Shown here: positions 3,384-10,650 of the stretch, piece by piece
How positions within the stretch are numbered: the stretch's first letter is position 1
Layout: each line of letters starts with the position of its first letter
DNA from: Alphaproteobacteria bacterium
GTDB lineage: Bacteria; Pseudomonadota; Alphaproteobacteria; Thalassobaculales; Thalassobaculaceae
Length of the DNA: 45,873 nucleotides
NCBI GenBank assembly: GCA_013203465.1
Contig: JABMNR010000022.1
Span: 1 to 45,873 of the forward strand
Direction: 5' to 3'
Position numbers and translations under genes: made by a program
Notes under the pieces: model-generated
Database searches by the model: none
Seen by the model: only the letters and a program-made list of their open reading frames with translations
What the model was told of the DNA's origin: nothing

Positions 3384-4412
3384 ATGAAAAGCACAGTGGA
3401 TTACGTTCTCGGCGAGACCCTGCCCGAGCCCGGCACGGCGATCGAGGTGGCGAACGGCGTGCGGTGGATTCGCATGCCCCTGCCGTTCGCCCTCAACCAT
3501 GTGAACCTCTATCTGATCGACGACGACGAAGGCTGGGTGCTGATCGACACCGGCATCGCCACCGATCAGACCAAAGCGCTGTGGGAGCGCGTGCTGGAAA
3601 CCCAGCTCGACGGCAAACCGATCAGCCAGATCGTGGTGACCCACTTCCATCCCGACCATATGGGATGCGCCGGGTGGATGCTGGATCGCACCCCGGCACA
3701 GTTCTGGATGACCCGCTCGGAATGGCTGTCGGCGCGGGCGATCCGGCTCGACGACAGCGACGAGTTGTTGGACGGCATCGCCGCGTTCTACCGCCGTACC
3801 GGTTTGGGTGACGACACCGTTTTCGACCTGCGCGCCATGGGCAACACCTACCGCCGTCAGGTCTCGCCGATCCCGCTGATCTATCAGCGGATCGCCGCCG
3901 ACACCTGCCTGGAAATCGGCGGTCGGCGCTGGATGGCGGTGATCGGCGCCGGCCATTCGCCGGAGCACGCCTGCCTATACTGTCCGGAAGCCGGTCTGAT
4001 GATCGGCGGCGATTTCCTGCTGCCGCGGATCTCGCCGAACATCTCGGTCTGGTGGAACGAGCCGGACGGCAACCCGCTCAACGACTATCTGCGGTTTCTC
4101 GACCGCTTGGACGTGATCGCCGACGAGACCCTGATCCTGCCGTCGCATGATCGGCCGTTCCGTGGTGTGAAGCCCCGCGCCGTCGACCTGTCGACGCACC
4201 ACGACCAACGCTGCGACCTGGCTTTGGATATCTGCCGCAAGCCGGCGACCGCCGCCGAGGTGATGACGGCGATGTTCAAGCGCACGCTGGACACCCATCA
4301 GACCCGGTTCGCCATCGGTGAGGCGTTGGCGCATCTCAATTTCATGCTCGATCAAGGCCGGTTGGCGCGGCATCTGTCGAGCGACGGCGCCTGGCGTTTC
4401 GTCGCGGCTTGA
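3384..4412 (+). CDS. MBL-fold metallo-hydrolase
   Basis: 342 residues. The metallo-beta-lactamase signature THFHPDHMG lies near residues 87-95, with the preceding strand WVLIDTG near 53. A further metal histidine is in GAGHSPEHACLYC near 190, then GGDF near 212 and LPSHDRPF near 255. The C-terminal region is helical. This architecture is common in uncharacterised glyoxalase-II-like hydrolases. It follows phnN by 12 bases and may belong to the same transcript. PhnP, the phosphodiesterase of C-P lyase clusters, is also an MBL protein but is shorter and differs in motif spacing, so I do not call this PhnP. Substrate unknown. Confidence 0.85.
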   Translation: MKSTVDYVLGETLPEPGTAIEVANGVRWIRMPLPFALNHVNLYLIDDDEGWVLIDTGIATDQTKALWERVLETQLDGKPISQIVVTHFHPDHMGCAGWMLDRTPAQFWMTRSEWLSARAIRLDDSDELLDGIAAFYRRTGLGDDTVFDLRAMGNTYRRQVSPIPLIYQRIAADTCLEIGGRRWMAVIGAGHSPEHACLYCPEAGLMIGGDFLLPRISPNISVWWNEPDGNPLNDYLRFLDRLDVIADETLILPSHDRPFRGVKPRAVDLSTHHDQRCDLALDICRKPATAAEVMTAMFKRTLDTHQTRFAIGEALAHLNFMLDQGRLARHLSSDGAWRFVAA

Positions 4413-4422
4413 GGGCCTCGGG

Positions 4423-5451
4423 TCAGTCCTCGGCCGATCCGACCACGCCGCTGACCAGGTTCTCCCGATACAACGCCGCCTCGTCGAGCCAGGCTCTGGC
4501 GGGCTCGAACCGTTCGATCACCCGCGCGATCCGCTGTTCCAGAACGCGGCGCAACGCCTCGGCCTCGGCGACCGTAATCCGCTCGAACCGCAGCGCATCG
4601 CCCGGACGCAGCCGACCGAGGCGCGGCACGTCGGCGGAGATCACGGTGCCGAGCTTGGGATAGCCGCCGGTGGTCTGGTGATCGGCCAACAGCACGATCG
4701 GCCGGCCGTTGCCCGGCACCTGGATCGCCCCCGTCGCAATGCCGTCGGAAACGATGTCGTGCCCCCGCGCGTGCTCAAGCACCGGGCCGTCGAGCCGAAT
4801 GCCCATGCGGTCGGCCTCGCGTGACGCGGCGTAACCTTCGGCAAAAAACCTTTTGATCGAGGCCTCGGTGATGTAATCGTCCTGCGGTCCAAGCACGACC
4901 CGGAACGGCCCCACCTCGTCCAACCAAGACAGGTCGGCGCAGCGCCGCTCCTCACGCTCCGGCACGGTGTCGAGCGCCAGCGGAAGCGCGTCACCGCCGG
5001 CAACCGGGCGGCCGTCGACACCGCCGATGCGGGCCCGGGCGTAGGTTGATCGGCTGCCATAGACCGCCGGCACATCGATTCCGCCCTCAACCGCCAGATA
5101 GGCGACCCCGGTGTCGGACAGCCCGCCAATGCGAAACCGCTGGCCGCGTTCGAGCCGCGCGGACTCATACGCTGGAATGCGGGCCGGGCGATCCGCCAGC
5201 AACTCGATCGGCGCGGCCGTGCCGACCAGGGCGATGCGGATCGCCTCCGCCGTTACCTCCAACGTCGGCCCCATCACCCGCAGCTCCAACGCCGCCGCAT
5301 CCGGCGGATTGCCGACCAACGCGTTGGCGATGCGTAAGGCGACCGGGTCCAACGCGCCGGATGGCGGCACACCGAGGTTCTGGACGTGGGGCCGGCCAAG
5401 ATCCTGAACTGTGGGCGCGAAACCGGCGCTCATGACGCGAAGCCCGCTCAC
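4423..5451 (-). CDS. pxpC: 5-oxoprolinase subunit PxpC (biotin-dependent carboxyltransferase family)
   Basis: About 342 residues. The N-terminus (SAGFAPTVQDLGRPH, then GVPPSGALDPVALRIAN) is the hallmark of the KipA/PxpC family, as are EGGIDVPAVYGSRSTY near 125 and VLGPQDDYIT near 180. PxpC works with PxpB and PxpA in ATP-dependent opening of 5-oxoproline (pyroglutamate) to glutamate. The GTG at 5451 overlaps the pxpB stop (GTGA), which is why I chose it; an ATG at 5433 is an alternative. It ends ten bases from the convergent MBL hydrolase gene. Confidence 0.92.
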   Translation of the reverse strand: MSGLRVMSAGFAPTVQDLGRPHVQNLGVPPSGALDPVALRIANALVGNPPDAAALELRVMGPTLEVTAEAIRIALVGTAAPIELLADRPARIPAYESARLERGQRFRIGGLSDTGVAYLAVEGGIDVPAVYGSRSTYARARIGGVDGRPVAGGDALPLALDTVPEREERRCADLSWLDEVGPFRVVLGPQDDYITEASIKRFFAEGYAASREADRMGIRLDGPVLEHARGHDIVSDGIATGAIQVPGNGRPIVLLADHQTTGGYPKLGTVISADVPRLGRLRPGDALRFERITVAEAEALRRVLEQRIARVIERFEPARAWLDEAALYRENLVSGVVGSAED

Positions 5452-6197
5452 GATACCGCCACCTCGGGTTCGACGCCGGTTTCGCCAGCCGCAACCCGTG
5501 TCCACAACTCATCGTAGGCCGCTTGGCCGACCGGCTCGAACCGGATGCGATCACCGGCCGCCAGCAGGATAGGCACCGCGCGGCGCAGATCGAACAACTC
5601 GATCGGCGTGCGTCCCAGAATGTGCCAACCGCCCGGCGACTCACTTGGATAGACATTGGTGAGATTGGTGGCGATCGCCACCGATCCGGCCGGCACCCGT
5701 ACCCGCGGTTCGGCCCGGCGCGGCAGCTCAAGTTCCTTGGCCAGAATGCCGAGATAGGGCAATCCCGGCAGGAACCCCATCATGTAGACGTCGTAGGTCG
5801 TCTCGCTGTGCAACGCGATCACCCGATCGGGCGACAGCCCGGTGCGCTCCGCGACCTCGTCGAGATCGGGGCCGACCGCGCCACCGTACAGCGTCGGCAG
5901 ACGCCACAGCCGGCCACGCGACATGTCGCCCGGCGGATGGGAGAGGACATCGCGCAGCGCCGCTTGCAGTGCCTGCGCCGAGGTGACGAGCGGATCGTAG
6001 TGCACCATCAGCGAACGGAAGGTCGGCACCAGGTCGACGATGCCGTCGATCGCCGCCTCGCGCGCCGCGGCGGCCAACCGGGTCACACGGTGGTTGACCG
6101 CCGGATCGACGACATCACCGAACTCGACCACCAGCGCGGTATCGCCGGCGGCAAGAAAGCGTGGACTGACGGAGGCGGATTGGACCTCGGCGCCCAT
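5448..6197 (-). CDS. pxpB: 5-oxoprolinase subunit PxpB (KipI family)
   Basis: 249 residues from the ATG at 6197. The PxpB/KipI signature is present: FLAAGDTALVVEFGD at the N-terminus, VPTFRSLMVHYDP near 60, and the family motifs YDVYMMGFLPGLPYLG near 125 and SVAIATNLTNVYPSESPGGW near 163. It is the partner of PxpC in the oxoprolinase complex. In-frame codons upstream reach 6272, but they would run into the divergent pxpA promoter area, and the conserved fold begins shortly after 6197. The spacer to pxpA is 78 bases and must hold both promoters. Confidence 0.93.
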   Translation of the reverse strand: MGAEVQSASVSPRFLAAGDTALVVEFGDVVDPAVNHRVTRLAAAAREAAIDGIVDLVPTFRSLMVHYDPLVTSAQALQAALRDVLSHPPGDMSRGRLWRLPTLYGGAVGPDLDEVAERTGLSPDRVIALHSETTYDVYMMGFLPGLPYLGILAKELELPRRAEPRVRVPAGSVAIATNLTNVYPSESPGGWHILGRTPIELFDLRRAVPILLAAGDRIRFEPVGQAAYDELWTRVAAGETGVEPEVAVS

Positions 6198-6231: not shown

Positions 6232-6275
6232 CCGTCCGCAATTCGGCGGCCGCATTTCCCTAGGATGGGCACGGC

Positions 6276-7052
6276 ATGACACGCAAGGTCAATCTCAACG
6301 CCGACATGGGCGAAGGCTTCGGCGCCTACGACATCGGCAACGATATCGGCATGTTGGAGATCATCAATTCAGCCAACGTGGCGTGCGGCTTTCACGCCGG
6401 TGATCCGAACGTGATGAGCAGGGTCTGCCGTGATGCCAAGGCCAAGGGCGTCTCGATCGGCGCCCATCCGGGGTTCAACGATCTCTGGGGCTTCGGGCGC
6501 CGTTCGATCACGATGCCGGTCGCGGATGTCGAAACCATGGTGATCTATCAGATCGGCGCGCTGCAGGCGATCGCCCGGGCTAACGGCACCACGGTCAGCC
6601 ATGTGAAGATTCACGGCGCGCTCAACAACATGGGAGCGGTCGATCCGGATCTGGCGTTGAGCCTCGCCCGCGCCGTCAAGGCGGCCGATCCGTCGCTGAT
6701 CTTCCTGGTGCCGACCGGCTCGGAACTGATCGCGGCGTCGGAGACACTCGGTTTGGCGTACGCCTCCGAGGTGTTCGCCGACCGCACCTATGACGACAAT
6801 GGCGATCTCACCCCGCGCAGCCAGCCCAACGCCATGATCCACGACCCAAAAGAGGCGGTGGACCGGGTTCTGCACATGATCGAGCACCAGGAAGTCATCT
6901 CCACCTCGGGCAAGGCCATCCCCGCCAAGGTCCATAGCATCTGCGTGCATGGCGACGAGCCGACGGCGGTCGCCGTGTCGACGGCGGTGCGCGACGGCAT
7001 CCGCGCCGCCGGGGTTGAGCTGGCCGCCCTGCCCGACATCGATCTGCGCTAG
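6276..7052 (+). CDS. pxpA: 5-oxoprolinase subunit PxpA (LamB/YcsF family)
   Basis: 258 residues, standard length. The N-terminal signature VNLNADMGEGFGAYDIGND is almost textbook, followed by NVACGFHAGDPNVM (about 33-46), IGAHPGFND near 63 and KIHGALNNMG near 112. The C-terminal SICVHGDEPTAV is also conserved. PxpA is the catalytic partner that with PxpBC converts 5-oxoproline to glutamate using ATP. It is divergent from pxpBC rather than in one operon with them. The start of the M24 hydrolase gene lies eight bases after its stop, so those two are very probably co-transcribed. Confidence 0.95.
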   Translation: MTRKVNLNADMGEGFGAYDIGNDIGMLEIINSANVACGFHAGDPNVMSRVCRDAKAKGVSIGAHPGFNDLWGFGRRSITMPVADVETMVIYQIGALQAIARANGTTVSHVKIHGALNNMGAVDPDLALSLARAVKAADPSLIFLVPTGSELIAASETLGLAYASEVFADRTYDDNGDLTPRSQPNAMIHDPKEAVDRVLHMIEHQEVISTSGKAIPAKVHSICVHGDEPTAVAVSTAVRDGIRAAGVELAALPDIDLR

Positions 7053-7060
7053 ACCCGAAC

Positions 7061-8236
7061 GTGAAACCCGCTTTTGCCAAGACCGAATACGACGCACGCC
7101 TGGCCAAGGCCAAGACCCGCATGGCCGATGCCGGGGTCGATGTGCTGGTCGTCACCGAACCGGCCAACATGGGCTGGCTCACCGGCTACGACGGCTGGTC
7201 GTTCTACACGCCGCAATGCTTGCTGGTGGCGCTGACGCTGGACCAGCCGGTGTTGATCGTGCGCGGCATGGACGCCAACGCCGGCAAGGTCACCACCTAT
7301 CTCGATCACGGCAACATCCTGGGATACCCGGACCATTACGTGCAGCAGCCCGACCGCCATCCGATGGATTGGGTGGCCCAGGAGATGGCACGGCGCAACA
7401 TCGCCACGGGTCGGGTCGGGCTGGAGATGGATAGCTACTATTTCTCGCCCATGGCCTACGAGCATCTGAAGGCCGGTCTGCCAAACGCGACCGCCGTGAA
7501 CGCCAACAGCCTGGTGAATTGGGCTCGCGTGGTGAAATCCCCGGCCGAGATCGCCTACATGCGCGAAGCGGCCCGGATCGTCGAGGCGACGATGGCCGTC
7601 GGCATCGAGCATGTCCGCCCCGGCACCCGCCAATGCGACGCGGTGGCGGCGATCTACCAGGCCCAGATCCGCGGCACCGATGGGGTCGGCGGCGACTATC
7701 CATCGCTGGTGCCGATGCTGCCGACCGGAGTCGGCGCCTCGACCCCGCATCTGACATGGTCGGACGAGGTGTTTCGCGAGGACGAGGCAACGATCCTGGA
7801 GCTGGCCGGCGTGCGGCGGCGCTACCATTGCCCGATGGCGCGTACGGTCTCGTTGGGCAAACCGCCGCAGAAATTGGCCGATGCGTCGGCCGTGATCTGC
7901 GACGGCATCGCCGCCGCGCTCGACGCCGCCAAGCCCGGCGCCACCTGCGAGGAGGTTGAGCGGGCGTGGCGCGGCGTGCTGGCGCGATCCGGGTTCGAAA
8001 AAGAAAGCCGGATCGGCTATTCGGTGGGGCTCAACTACCCACCCGATTGGGGCGAGCACACCATGAGCCTGCGCCCCGGCGACACCACGGTGATCAAGCC
8101 GAACATGACCTTTCACATGATCCCCGGCCTGATGCTCGACGATTGCGGCATTGAGATTTCCGAGTGTTTCCTGATCACCGAAACCGGCGCCGAATGCCTG
8201 TGCGATTTCCCCCGCCCGCTGGTGGTGAAGCAATAA
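7061..8236 (+). CDS. M24-fold hydrolase of the ectoine hydrolase (DoeA/EutD) type
   Basis: 391 residues from a GTG start. A creatinase-type N-terminal domain (to about 150) is followed by a pita-bread M24 domain. Where metal-dependent M24 peptidases have two Asp ligands (D.G...GY..D.TRT), this protein reads LELAGVRRRYHCPMART, so both ligands are replaced. The same pattern, together with WLTGYDGWSFY near 41, GYPDHYVQQ near 88 and GLNYPPDWGEHT near 325, is what I recall for DoeA/EutD, which opens the ring of ectoine. No doeB/eutE deacetylase gene is in view. The gene follows pxpA by eight bases, suggesting a substrate linked to cyclic amino-acid turnover. The exact substrate is inferred. Confidence 0.75.
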   Translation: MKPAFAKTEYDARLAKAKTRMADAGVDVLVVTEPANMGWLTGYDGWSFYTPQCLLVALTLDQPVLIVRGMDANAGKVTTYLDHGNILGYPDHYVQQPDRHPMDWVAQEMARRNIATGRVGLEMDSYYFSPMAYEHLKAGLPNATAVNANSLVNWARVVKSPAEIAYMREAARIVEATMAVGIEHVRPGTRQCDAVAAIYQAQIRGTDGVGGDYPSLVPMLPTGVGASTPHLTWSDEVFREDEATILELAGVRRRYHCPMARTVSLGKPPQKLADASAVICDGIAAALDAAKPGATCEEVERAWRGVLARSGFEKESRIGYSVGLNYPPDWGEHTMSLRPGDTTVIKPNMTFHMIPGLMLDDCGIEISECFLITETGAECLCDFPRPLVVKQ

Positions 8237-8385: not shown

Positions 8386-9495
8386 ATGATCGATAGCGCG
8401 ACTTACGACGCTGCGGAGCAACGCGCGCGTGAAGCTGTCTCGTCCTGGGTATGGCAAAGCATGCTCACGACGTCAGCGTTCGATGTGAGCGGCTTTCCAA
8501 AACGCATCAGTACAATCCACGAATTACGCGGTTTGGTGGATGCGATGGACCACCGGCGCTTTCATTTGTTCATGAGGGAATTAAATGGTCTGGCGCCCGA
8601 TGAACAGCAACACCTTCTTCGCGTACTGGCCACGTTCTGCCGTTTTTCAGCGGAAACATTTCACGACGATACCGTGATCCTGCCGCTCAATACAATCATG
8701 GCTAGCTTTTTAAGTTACCTGAAACTATCCGGGTTACCAAAACAGGCCACGATACTCGAGATTGGCGCAGGGACCGGTTATCTTCCATTTTTCACTGAGT
8801 CGGACACGCGATTTCAACGCCGCATCCAGGTTGAAGTCACTCAAAGCCTATACATCCTTCAATCGCGGGTGAACGCCTACCTGTTCCGCGATAGCTTTCA
8901 TGATGCCGCCATGGCTCCCCCACCTGCTGCCAAGGTCGGTGCGCTGGTGGAGCGTATGAGGTCTCGAGGGCGCCTGCACGAGCAACCCATGACCTTACAA
9001 GTGCCGCGCCAATCACGAACTGTTCAGTATCCTTGGTGGTTGGTCGACCAAGCATTTGATAGGACATGGCGGTACGACGTCGTGGTGTCGAACGGTAATA
9101 TTGCCGAAATGACTTTCGGCGCCTTCGACTATTACTTTGAGAATTTACGGCATTGCTTGCAGCCTGATGGGGTCATTCTCATAGACGATCTCGGCGCCCC
9201 GGGCGACACCGGATATCCACCGCGCCTCCGACGTTTTCTGGAAATCGGGTTTCGGCCGCTTGTTTATGTCTTGCCTACGTTTGAATTCAAACCGTTCACG
9301 CGGGTGAATCTGCTTCTGGTCGCAGAGGAGCATCCGCACTGGAACGACGCCGCGACCGACTTCTCGAAGCAGCATTTTCCCAGTGACCTTCCTATCACTC
9401 GCGCTGTCTATGGGCTCGATCGACCACGAGGCGCGTTGCTTACCCGGGAAGAACTAGTCGAATGTTTCCTTGCCTTCAACGCACGCGCGGCTTGA
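8386..9495 (+). CDS. Uncharacterised class I SAM methyltransferase-like protein, copy 1
   Basis: 369 residues, not matched to a named family. A helical N-terminal region of about 115 residues precedes motif I, ILEIGAGTGYL at 123-133. EVTQSLYILQSR follows at the position where the ribose-binding acidic residue is usual, and a later strand DVVVSNGNIAEM is near 230. Together these indicate an SAM-binding Rossmann fold. The next gene has the same layout, with motif I at residue 125, the xVTQS/DATQS segment, a PWW motif and a DVVVS strand, so the two are diverged tandem paralogues. Both begin with ATGATCGATA and carry ACGGAG 12 bases before the ATG. Codon and base use is visibly less GC-rich than in the neighbours, suggesting transfer. 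Substrate unknown. Confidence 0.75.
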   Translation: MIDSATYDAAEQRAREAVSSWVWQSMLTTSAFDVSGFPKRISTIHELRGLVDAMDHRRFHLFMRELNGLAPDEQQHLLRVLATFCRFSAETFHDDTVILPLNTIMASFLSYLKLSGLPKQATILEIGAGTGYLPFFTESDTRFQRRIQVEVTQSLYILQSRVNAYLFRDSFHDAAMAPPPAAKVGALVERMRSRGRLHEQPMTLQVPRQSRTVQYPWWLVDQAFDRTWRYDVVVSNGNIAEMTFGAFDYYFENLRHCLQPDGVILIDDLGAPGDTGYPPRLRRFLEIGFRPLVYVLPTFEFKPFTRVNLLLVAEEHPHWNDAATDFSKQHFPSDLPITRAVYGLDRPRGALLTREELVECFLAFNARAA

Positions 9496-9549: not shown

Positions 9550-10650
9550 ATGATCGATATCACCGCCTATGACGTAATTGAACGCCGCAGGCGTTTGGAT
9601 TTTGGCACCGGCGTCAACATGGCTTTCGCACCAGTCACGTTCCGCGAGCGCGGATTCCCCGACCGGATCGACGATTACGCCGAGTTGCCGCAGTTCACCG
9701 AGAACATGAACCTGCTCGCCGGTCCCAATCCATGGCTCGAGGCAATGCGCGTCACCATGCTGGAGGCGGCGATCTTGAACAACGTCAACGCCGCGGTGCT
9801 TGATTTCAACGCCCGCGCCTGCGGAAAGCGGATCGCCCCCTTGAGCTCGTCGGCGACGATGTTGCCGTTGCTGCGGTTTCTGACCGCCTTCGCCGATCGG
9901 TTCCACGATGGCCGGCTCAACGTTCTGGAGATCGGCCCCGGTGCCGGCTATTTGGGCCTCATGCTCGCCCAGGCGGGTCATCGCTATGTCGCCACCGACG
10001 CGACGCAAAGTTTCTACATCTGGCAGAATGCGTTGTGGGAGCACGTCATGCCCGGCGCAGTCACCGAAACCGCGTTCGATGACGCGCCTCCCACCACCCT
10101 AAAGACGCACATCACCCACCTACCTTGGTGGCACTTCGCGAAGCTGCGCGACGGTTTCGACTGGAACATCGACGTGGTCGTCTCGAAAGCCGTCCTCGCC
10201 GAGACCCATTCTTTTTTTCAACGGTTCCTGTTCCGGCTATCCGAGTTGCTGCTGCGCGGCGACCGTCCGAAGGCCTTCGTGTTCGACGGTGTTGGCGCTC
10301 AAACCCATGGTAACCGCGCGGACATTCACCGCCTCCTGCTCGACTATGGATACCACGCCCTCAATGCTCCCGAACTGGTAACGAAGGGACTCGATCGCCG
10401 CTTGAACTCGCGGATTGACGTCTATGCCCCCCGGGGATCCCTTTTACACGCGCACGGTTCGGCGGAAATCGAACGTGAACGACTTCCCGACATACTGCAG
10501 GGCATCACACCCAACACTCCGCTATCGGATGGTGACGATACCGTGCATTCCATTGGCCAGGTGCTGGACATCGATCCGGACGTCGCCTACCCGGACTATG
10601 AATTCTTCGAGTTTCTCGGAACCCGGACCGCATATTCAGGTCGCAAGTAG
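9550..10650 (+). CDS. Uncharacterised class I SAM methyltransferase-like protein, copy 2
   Basis: 366 residues, paralogue of the preceding gene. Motif I is VLEIGPGAGYLGLML (125-139), followed by ATDATQSFYIWQN (near 149), LPWWHF near 193 and DVVVSKAVLAET near 211. The N-terminus (MID, AYD, then GFPDRIDDYAELP near 36-48) matches the GFPKRISTIHELR of copy 1. Its base composition is closer to the host than copy 1. The gap between the two genes is 54 bases, so they are probably co-transcribed. The predicted reaction is methyl transfer to an unknown acceptor, perhaps a glycan or lipid head group; this is not supported beyond the fold. Confidence 0.75.
   Translation: MIDITAYDVIERRRRLDFGTGVNMAFAPVTFRERGFPDRIDDYAELPQFTENMNLLAGPNPWLEAMRVTMLEAAILNNVNAAVLDFNARACGKRIAPLSSSATMLPLLRFLTAFADRFHDGRLNVLEIGPGAGYLGLMLAQAGHRYVATDATQSFYIWQNALWEHVMPGAVTETAFDDAPPTTLKTHITHLPWWHFAKLRDGFDWNIDVVVSKAVLAETHSFFQRFLFRLSELLLRGDRPKAFVFDGVGAQTHGNRADIHRLLLDYGYHALNAPELVTKGLDRRLNSRIDVYAPRGSLLHAHGSAEIERERLPDILQGITPNTPLSDGDDTVHSIGQVLDIDPDVAYPDYEFFEFLGTRTAYSGRK

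Follow-up and report, generated by a model that had tools for sequence, protein, structure and literature searches.

The window analysed here is the whole of contig JABMNR010000022.1 (45,873 nucleotides) from an alphaproteobacterium of the family Thalassobaculaceae; it belongs, as contig C229, to genome G000 (4.48 Mb, with completeness given as 100% and contamination as 2.49%), and its annotation covers seven open reading frames (ORFs) between positions 3384 and 10650. These include the 5-oxoprolinase genes pxpA, pxpB, and pxpC and, directly behind pxpA, a gene of the M24 fold, whose family, surroundings, and possible substrate are the subject of this analysis (Table 1). The gap between pxpA and the M24 gene is 8 bases (7052 to 7061), as a sequence-only reading of this DNA had described. 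The same reading spoke of an enzyme fused into an oxoprolinase operon; the two genes are adjacent and not fused, and only pxpA shares the strand of the M24 gene, pxpB and pxpC being divergent. From the spacing alone, the M24 gene is probably transcribed together with pxpA. No promoter-like site was detected between 6100 and 8500, and the single terminator-like site in this interval lies on the opposite strand and is at chance level.

The family models NF003814 (PxpA), TIGR00370 (PxpB), and TIGR00724 (PxpC) were each matched above their cut-offs. All three PxpA equivalog models scored below their cut-offs for the PxpA of the window, and the PxpC equivalog model NF045499 reached 215.5 bits (cut-off 500). 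A single copy of pxpA was found in the window's genome (matches at E up to 1e−20). The starts of pxpB and pxpC given in Table 1 were picked by a codon model; earlier GTG codons at 6272 and 5505, respectively, are possible.

Table 1. Positions of the genes, codons, and further features discussed in the text
Feature	Record	Position	Strand	Profile match or remark
M24-fold gene, EutD/DoeA family (391 aa, GTG start)	window	7061-8236	+	TIGR02993 526.9 bits
pxpA (LamB/YcsF family)	window	6276-7052	+	PF03746 320 bits; NF003814 349.9 (cut-off 226)
pxpB, divergent from pxpA	window	5448-6197	-	TIGR00370 191.9 (cut-off 145.55)
pxpC, divergent from pxpA	window	4423-5451	-	TIGR00724 272.9 (cut-off 230.2)
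Metallo-beta-lactamase (MBL)-fold hydrolase near the pxp genes	window	3384-4412	+	PF00753, PF21221
Codon E247, first metal-Asp position	window	7799-7801	+	E255 in H. elongata EutD
Codon P258, second metal-Asp position	window	7832-7834	+	P266 in H. elongata EutD
Codon Y320, metal-His position	window	8018-8020	+	Y329 in H. elongata EutD
Codon I354, metal-Glu position	window	8120-8122	+	M363 in H. elongata EutD
Codon M358, sole fixed departure at the 97% level	window	8132-8134	+	Trp 367 in rest of family
Codon S367, metal-Glu position	window	8159-8161	+	T376 in H. elongata EutD
M24 ortholog, Thalassobaculum fulvum	L008	10001-11176		
EutE over cut-off, M24-ortholog genome	L074	8952-9953		
EutE over cut-off, M24-ortholog genome	L075	8934-9935		
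EutE over cut-off, M24-ortholog genome	L076	9001-10074		
EutE over cut-off, M24-ortholog genome	L085	8606-9541		
EutE over cut-off, M24-ortholog genome	L093	1394-2401		
Microcystinase MlrC-like gene (weak)	L182	3412-4911		188-201 bits in both loci (cut-off 999)
Microcystinase MlrC-like gene (weak)	L180	3001-4491		see L182
EutB-like/EutC-like pair	L118	8506-10528		
EutB-like/EutC-like pair	L119	9324-11325		
EutB-like/EutC-like pair	L120	8014-10018		
Bacillota EutD-like clade, members	several	L021 8510; L024 8319; L025 1253; L040 563; L041 1730; L042 9986; L043 3868; L044 1255		
ORF between the M24 gene and typA	window	8386-9495	+	weakly methyltransferase-like
ORF between the M24 gene and typA	window	9550-10650	+	

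Family and active site of the M24 protein

The M24 protein carries the Pfam domains Peptidase_M24 and Creatinase_N, and its best profile match is the ectoine-hydrolase model TIGR02993; ectoine is a salt protectant, whose ring this bacterial enzyme opens. The nearest solved sequences are the EutD chains 6twk and 6twj of Halomonas elongata (E about 1e−128, compared with about 1e−21 for prolidases), and 199 of 386 aligned residues are identical to this EutD. A structure model was built from 32 aligned sequences (pLDDT 91.4). Among the best 50 matches in the Protein Data Bank (PDB), those listed first for the predicted fold were 6yo9 (Z 54.1; rmsd 1.3 over 389 aligned residues), 6twk (Z 53.6), and 6twj (Z 52.1), followed after EutD by creatinase (Z 40.7) and Xaa-Pro dipeptidase (Z 39.8). 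The predicted likeness to EutD/DoeA (EC 3.5.4.44; 6TWJ, 6TWK, 6YO9) thus extends over the full-length fold at Z 52-54, although about half of the residues differ. Creatinase (creatine amidinohydrolase, 1CHM) represents the same type of C-N hydrolase with an M24 fold, at about 21% identity to the M24 protein. Creatinase is metal-free.

The metal ligands typical of M24 peptidases are lost. In the HMMER alignment with the Lactococcus prolidase, whose ligand residues we take to be two Asp, one His, and two Glu, the two Asp align with E247 (LELAG) and P258 (YHCPMART), which are the two replacements pointed out in the sequence-only reading, and the three other positions are changed as well (His to Y320, Glu to I354, Glu to S367). 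EutD of H. elongata has E255, P266, Y329, M363, and T376 at the five positions and hence the same Glu and Pro in place of the two Asp. For the comparison of conserved residues, 93 family rows were used: 9 pxp-linked, 23 canonical (EutE- or EutBC-linked), 38 located beside M20 genes, 6 from close alphaproteobacterial relatives, and 17 others. Glu occupies the position of E247, presumably the nucleophile, in every row of the first four groups. Of the 41 columns with at least 97% invariance across the remaining family, the pxp-linked subclade retains 40, the exception being W367M (H. elongata numbering). Met is found here in all nine pxp-linked rows, and Trp in 23/23, 38/38, and 6/6 rows of the other three groups. 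At this level, the other groups tested showed between zero and six fixed departures, compared with one in the pxp-linked subclade.

In a tree of 97 M24 rows (quick search with SH-aLRT support only, outgroup rows very long; L065_116, a duplicate of L058, and the 321-aa fragment L030_16557 were dropped beforehand), the nine pxp-linked proteins form one clade (SH-aLRT 100). This clade falls inside a 39-row alphaproteobacterial group (SH-aLRT 94), which also holds the canonical EutD and several non-canonical proteins. It lies outside the canonical EutD clade (23 rows, SH-aLRT 100), the internal branching of the 39-row group being without resolution. EutD-like proteins of Bacillota and of Desulfobacterota type branch outside this group. 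By fold, tree, and sequence, the M24 protein belongs to the wider EutD family, so that the EutD/DoeA-type pattern recognized in the sequence-only reading was borne out by profile, ligands, tree, and fold. The M24 and Creatinase_N domains would also be expected if the protein were a normal metal-dependent enzyme, prolidase or aminopeptidase P, with a mere resemblance to EutD; with all five ligands replaced and a clear grouping with EutD, away from the metal-dependent prolidases, this reading is contradicted by ligands, tree, and fold, and we assign it next to no probability.

The gene slot behind pxpA

Orthologs of the M24 gene were surveyed in 36 genomes of the order Thalassobaculales (identity of at least 80%). 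Nine genomes from four genera, the window's included, contain a full-length ortholog; the copy of G014 ends at a contig end, and G013 has a second, cut copy. In each of these nine genomes the full-length ortholog immediately follows pxpA and shares its strand, and a divergent pxpB flanks pxpA on its other side. The gaps between pxpA and the M24 gene range from 3 to 121 bases in eight of them, and in the ninth the start was over-called. Named records with this layout include Thalassobaculum fulvum (L008, classed as Rhodospirillales, Thalassobaculaceae) and Alpha proteobacterium BAL199 (L009). An MBL-fold gene is found nearby in all nine M24-type loci compared, and in four of them a phosphoenolpyruvate carboxylase-like gene is located between it and pxpC. 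Eight pairwise comparisons of the M24 gene gave ratios of nonsynonymous to synonymous substitution rates (dN/dS) of 0.05-0.23, which indicates that the gene is under constraint; the M24 protein is also better conserved than PxpA (87.0, 82.6, and 80.1% versus 76.0, 70.8, and 68.2% in three pairs with G000). Because of the same-strand arrangement in nine of nine orthologs and the low dN/dS, the adjacency of pxpA and the M24 gene appears to be more than chance.

A pxpA-family gene is present in 32 of the 36 genomes. The slot behind it is taken by an M20 gene in 17 genomes and by the M24 gene in nine; it ends at a contig edge in two (G014, G019) and holds neither gene in four (G001, G002, G005, and G034, of which G005 is 62% and G034 77% complete). 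The M20 gene is of the PRK07079 type and is oriented like pxpA, with 47-104 bases between the matched stretches, and five slot genes scanned reached 671-733 bits on NF005478/PRK07079 (cut-off 330). Seven of eight M20-type loci have a divergent pxpB or pxpC next to pxpA, whereas L185 stops at a contig end. An MBL gene adjoins pxpC in L179, L182, L187, and L188 and is not beside it in L184 and L186; for L180 and L185 this region lies beyond the sequence compared. The pxpABC block of the sister genera therefore has the same divergent layout and the same slot as the M24-type loci and differs in that the slot gene is an unrelated member of the M20 metallopeptidase family.

In a midpoint-rooted tree of 29 PxpA rows, the PxpA proteins of the M24-slot genomes plus that of G014 form one group among the M20-slot PxpA proteins, and a second type of PxpA lies outside. 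A single swap from M20 to M24 is the simplest reading of the slot. The M24 gene would then have displaced an M20 dipeptidase-like gene behind pxpA a single time, before the Thalassobaculum-like lineage diversified from its ancestor. After such a one-time displacement, the neighbourhood of the M24 gene says little about its substrate, and the swap is a warning against deducing a substrate from the pxpA neighbourhood alone. We consider it somewhat more likely than not that the M24 gene stands behind pxpA without sharing a pathway with it.

The shared slot might also mean that the role of the displaced M20 enzyme passed to the M24 enzyme, for example small peptide or amide hydrolysis in glutathione or gamma-glutamyl turnover, which would also yield 5-oxoproline. 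The weak MlrC-like gene that follows the M20 gene behind pxpA in two loci (Table 1) would fit such a role. We regard a functional replacement as improbable, since none of the five metal ligands on which peptide-cleaving M24 enzymes rely remains and most EutD invariants are retained. Furthermore, PRK07079 M20 genes persist elsewhere in the M24-slot genomes (two in G000), so that the M20 function may not have been lost. Of 68 M20 rows, the best 30 loci from outside the order were compared, and none has pxpA within about 1.5 kb (control 7/7), for which reason the pairing of M20 and pxpA may be an order-level trait; G017, which belongs to the order, has such a pair among the 68 M20 rows.

Ectoine genes and the candidate substrate

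Besides the M24 gene itself, none of the seven annotated ORFs of the window is an ectoine gene, and the annotated neighbourhood differs from that of EutD/DoeA in having pxpA in place of eutE or eutBC. Searches of the whole genome G000 took in EutD, EutE, EhuB, EutC, and ectoine synthase, with EutA, EutB, UehABC, and the transaminase outside their scope. They gave no match for EutE, EhuB, or ectoine synthase, a weak 201-bit match for EutC (cut-off 471.65), and a single EutD-level match on TIGR02993, the next reaching 128.7 bits, so that a closer DoeA was not found in this genome. The earlier statement that no ectoine partner genes are visible thus extends to the whole genome for EutE and EhuB, its part on the transaminase lying beyond the searches. 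With eutE, ehuB, and ectoine synthase all undetected, an ectoine route in the window's genome is unproven.

In the favoured explanation, to which we give an even chance as a whole, an EutD-type hydrolase was placed behind pxpA by displacement. The M24 gene product would be a metal-free EutD-type hydrolase acting on a small, carboxylate-bearing cyclic amidine, whose amidine carbon is attacked by E247, the Glu that replaces a metal ligand; a covalent intermediate would form, from which water would release a ring-opened N-acyl diamino acid. A covalent Glu mechanism reportedly applies to EutD. By analogy with EutD, amidine chemistry of this type is likely for the M24 enzyme. Ectoine, 5-hydroxyectoine, or a near analogue would be the most probable substrate, taken up from outside since no ectoine synthase was found; whether ectoine or hydroxyectoine is the main substrate is evenly balanced in our judgement. 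No chemistry in common with 5-oxoprolinase is required.

The EutD-type reading is supported by the surroundings of many relatives, which lie beside M20 deacetylase-like, EutB-like, EutC-like, or TRAP genes or beside EutE. Thirty-five loci of relatives were compared, mostly from Bacillota and of Desulfobacterota type, with two from archaeal and Rhizobium bins. An M20 amidohydrolase (cluster A1, deacetylase-like) is present in 29 of them, many of the 35 have EutB-like, EutC-like, or TRAP genes, and no EutE match was obtained in any of the 35. The putative EutD of these groups are 44-57% identical to the M24 protein. Their M20-linked loci agree with the putative Gram-positive eutD-eutC-atf clusters that, in the accessible part of PMC13188858, carry abgB and are without eutE.

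Several results weigh against the favoured explanation. On TIGR02993, the M24 protein remains below the curated NCBIfam cut-off for ectoine hydrolases (526.9 versus 613 bits), and four pxp-linked members scanned, the window's included, reach 523-531 bits, compared with 616-710 bits for three EutE- or EutBC-linked EutD; two EutD of Bacillota or Desulfobacterota type likewise score below it (486 and 431 bits). At the 90% level, five of 83 columns carry fixed changes in the subclade (D36E, A77G, D150N, E289D, and W367M), compared with 0-12 in the other groups tested, and the canonical EutD clade has no fixed departure at either level. By this residue count the degree of change in the subclade is nothing unusual within the family, although canonical EutD is stricter. 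EutE gave no match in the whole of G000 and was not found in five of the ten genomes with an M24 gene (G000 and four g10 genomes), while EhuB was not found in nine of the ten. In five M24-ortholog genomes, EutE is encoded far from any EutD, and a conserved MFS transporter lies within about 4 kb of it in all five loci (L074, L075, L076, L085, and L093). Both EutD and EutE are required for efficient ectoine breakdown according to the part of PMC8739950 available. Outside the subclade, the nearest relatives (56-60% identity, five loci) have mixed surroundings, mostly outside ectoine clusters: L158 adjoins EutE, L156 and L157 adjoin a Rieske oxygenase, L160 is a tandem pair of M24 genes, and L159 has no informative neighbour. 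Finally, the PxpA group on which the single swap is based has an SH-aLRT of 94, below 95.

A complete but scattered ectoine pathway, with the M24 protein as EutD and an EutE or M20 deacylase encoded elsewhere for the second step, would be in line with the occurrence of EutE over its cut-off together with the M24 ortholog in G013, G014, G028, G029, and G030 (one ortholog cut by a contig end), and with the abgB-containing Bacillota clusters mentioned above. EutE exceeds its cut-off in six of the 36 genomes, all of which have an EutD-family gene (16/36 overall; Fisher p 0.004, with three genera only and hence not independent), which also counts in favour of ectoine in the favoured explanation. 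We consider the scattered pathway unlikely: EutE is missing from the matches of G000 and the four g10 genomes, and its neighbourhoods elsewhere do not resemble ectoine clusters. M20 matches of the DoeB2-like kind are uninformative: 33 of the 36 genomes have them, irrespective of EutD, and all stay below the cut-off. Ectoine synthase is confined to five g8 genomes. Each of these carries another EutD, 47-48% identical to that of the window; one was scanned and passes the cut-off, and in four of the five an EutC over its cut-off adjoins this other EutD. In the accessible text of the Thalassobaculum paper PMC12016528, ectoine synthesis is mentioned for other genera only.

The sequence-only reading had suggested that the pair may act on a common or related non-ectoine cyclic derivative of an amino acid, PxpABC opening a cyclic amide and DoeA a cyclic amidine. 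Taken as a single route, the M24 enzyme would open or deaminate a cyclic amidine, and PxpABC would open the lactam formed. The assignment to an EutD/DoeA-type enzyme in that reading stands, and the common substrate is not supported. The invariant same-strand adjacency, purifying selection on both pxpA and the M24 gene, the lack of a detected eutE, ehuB, or ectC in the window's genome, the five fixed changes including W367M, and the score under the ectoine-hydrolase cut-off would all suit a shared route. Nevertheless, PxpABC is not generally paired with M24, since M20 occupies the slot in 17 genomes, no pxp gene occurs near the relatives in any of the 35 loci or in 20 class-wide neighbourhoods of EutD-family genes, most family-invariant columns are kept, and the slot swap accounts for the position behind pxpA. 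Shared non-ectoine chemistry is possible and not favoured, and we rate this route as doubtful. A non-ectoine substrate as such is possible, in the light of the sub-cut-off score, the change of Trp to Met in nine of nine proteins, the canonical clade without departures, and the undetected eutE.

A more specific version would make the subclade an EutD-derived hydrolase retuned, through W367M with D36E, A77G, D150N, and E289D, to a glutamine-related cyclic amidine and feeding PxpABC toward glutamate, for example by converting 5-amino-3,4-dihydro-2H-pyrrole-2-carboxylate to glutamine or 5-oxoproline. The part of PMC5924519 available reports that ectoine synthase makes this compound from glutamine. 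We think such retuning very unlikely; if true, the M24 enzyme and PxpABC would be successive steps of a route that salvages a cyclic by-product of amino-acid metabolism.

Surveys of ectoine catabolism have relied on EutD to query genomes or to mark trees (PMC5924519 and PMC13188858). The pxp-linked subclade places an EutD-like gene in a genome without detected eutE, ectoine synthase, or EhuB and is a test case for the reach of EutD specificity. A literature search, with subscription papers mostly outside its scope, returned no report of a linkage between ectoine hydrolase and YcsF or 5-oxoprolinase and none pairing an M20 gene with a 5-oxoprolinase subunit. The word "oxoprolinase" is absent from the accessible part of PMC13188858, and pxpTABC is treated in that of PMC13274462. 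The subclade is thus an EutD-family group in a genomic setting for which no description was found in the literature searched.

Further EutD-like groups and neighbouring genes

In a class-wide sample of 385 genomes, an EutD-family match (E up to 1e−60) was found in at least 57, and among the candidates scored outside the order (at most four per genome, so that the counts are lower bounds) no protein was more than 60% identical to the M24 protein. In four genomes of one family (G414, G148, G339, and G250), the EutD-family matches number four or more per genome; L156-L157, L160, and L173-L174 come from G414, G148, and G339. The best match of the Rieske oxygenase in L156 is glycine-betaine monooxygenase, far below the cut-off of that model.

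Two groups of the family depart further from the conserved columns. The M24 genes of L143, L149, L150, and L153 form an alphaproteobacterial EutD-like clade, three of the four adjoining an EutE-like gene, with P266G and four more fixed departures at the 97% level and 12 at the 90% level. Judged from these residues, altered specificity is more plausible for this clade than for the pxp-linked one. A Bacillota EutD-like clade (Table 1), often represented by the second copy in its cluster, shows six fixed departures at the 97% level (10 at 90%), W49 and D338 included, which suggests a different substrate or a non-catalytic partner.

EutB-like/EutC-like pairs without EutD were detected in L118, L119, and L120, the one in L118 adjoining the ATPase of an opine/dipeptide-type ABC transporter. 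These pairs may serve another hydroxy-amino acid.

Between the M24 gene and typA, the window contains two ORFs that share 24% identity over 250 residues. The first sits in a stretch of low GC content (0.53-0.55) and shares 39% identity with the gene that occupies the corresponding position in L009 (11207-12316). The two ORFs are possibly a mobile or fast-evolving insert.

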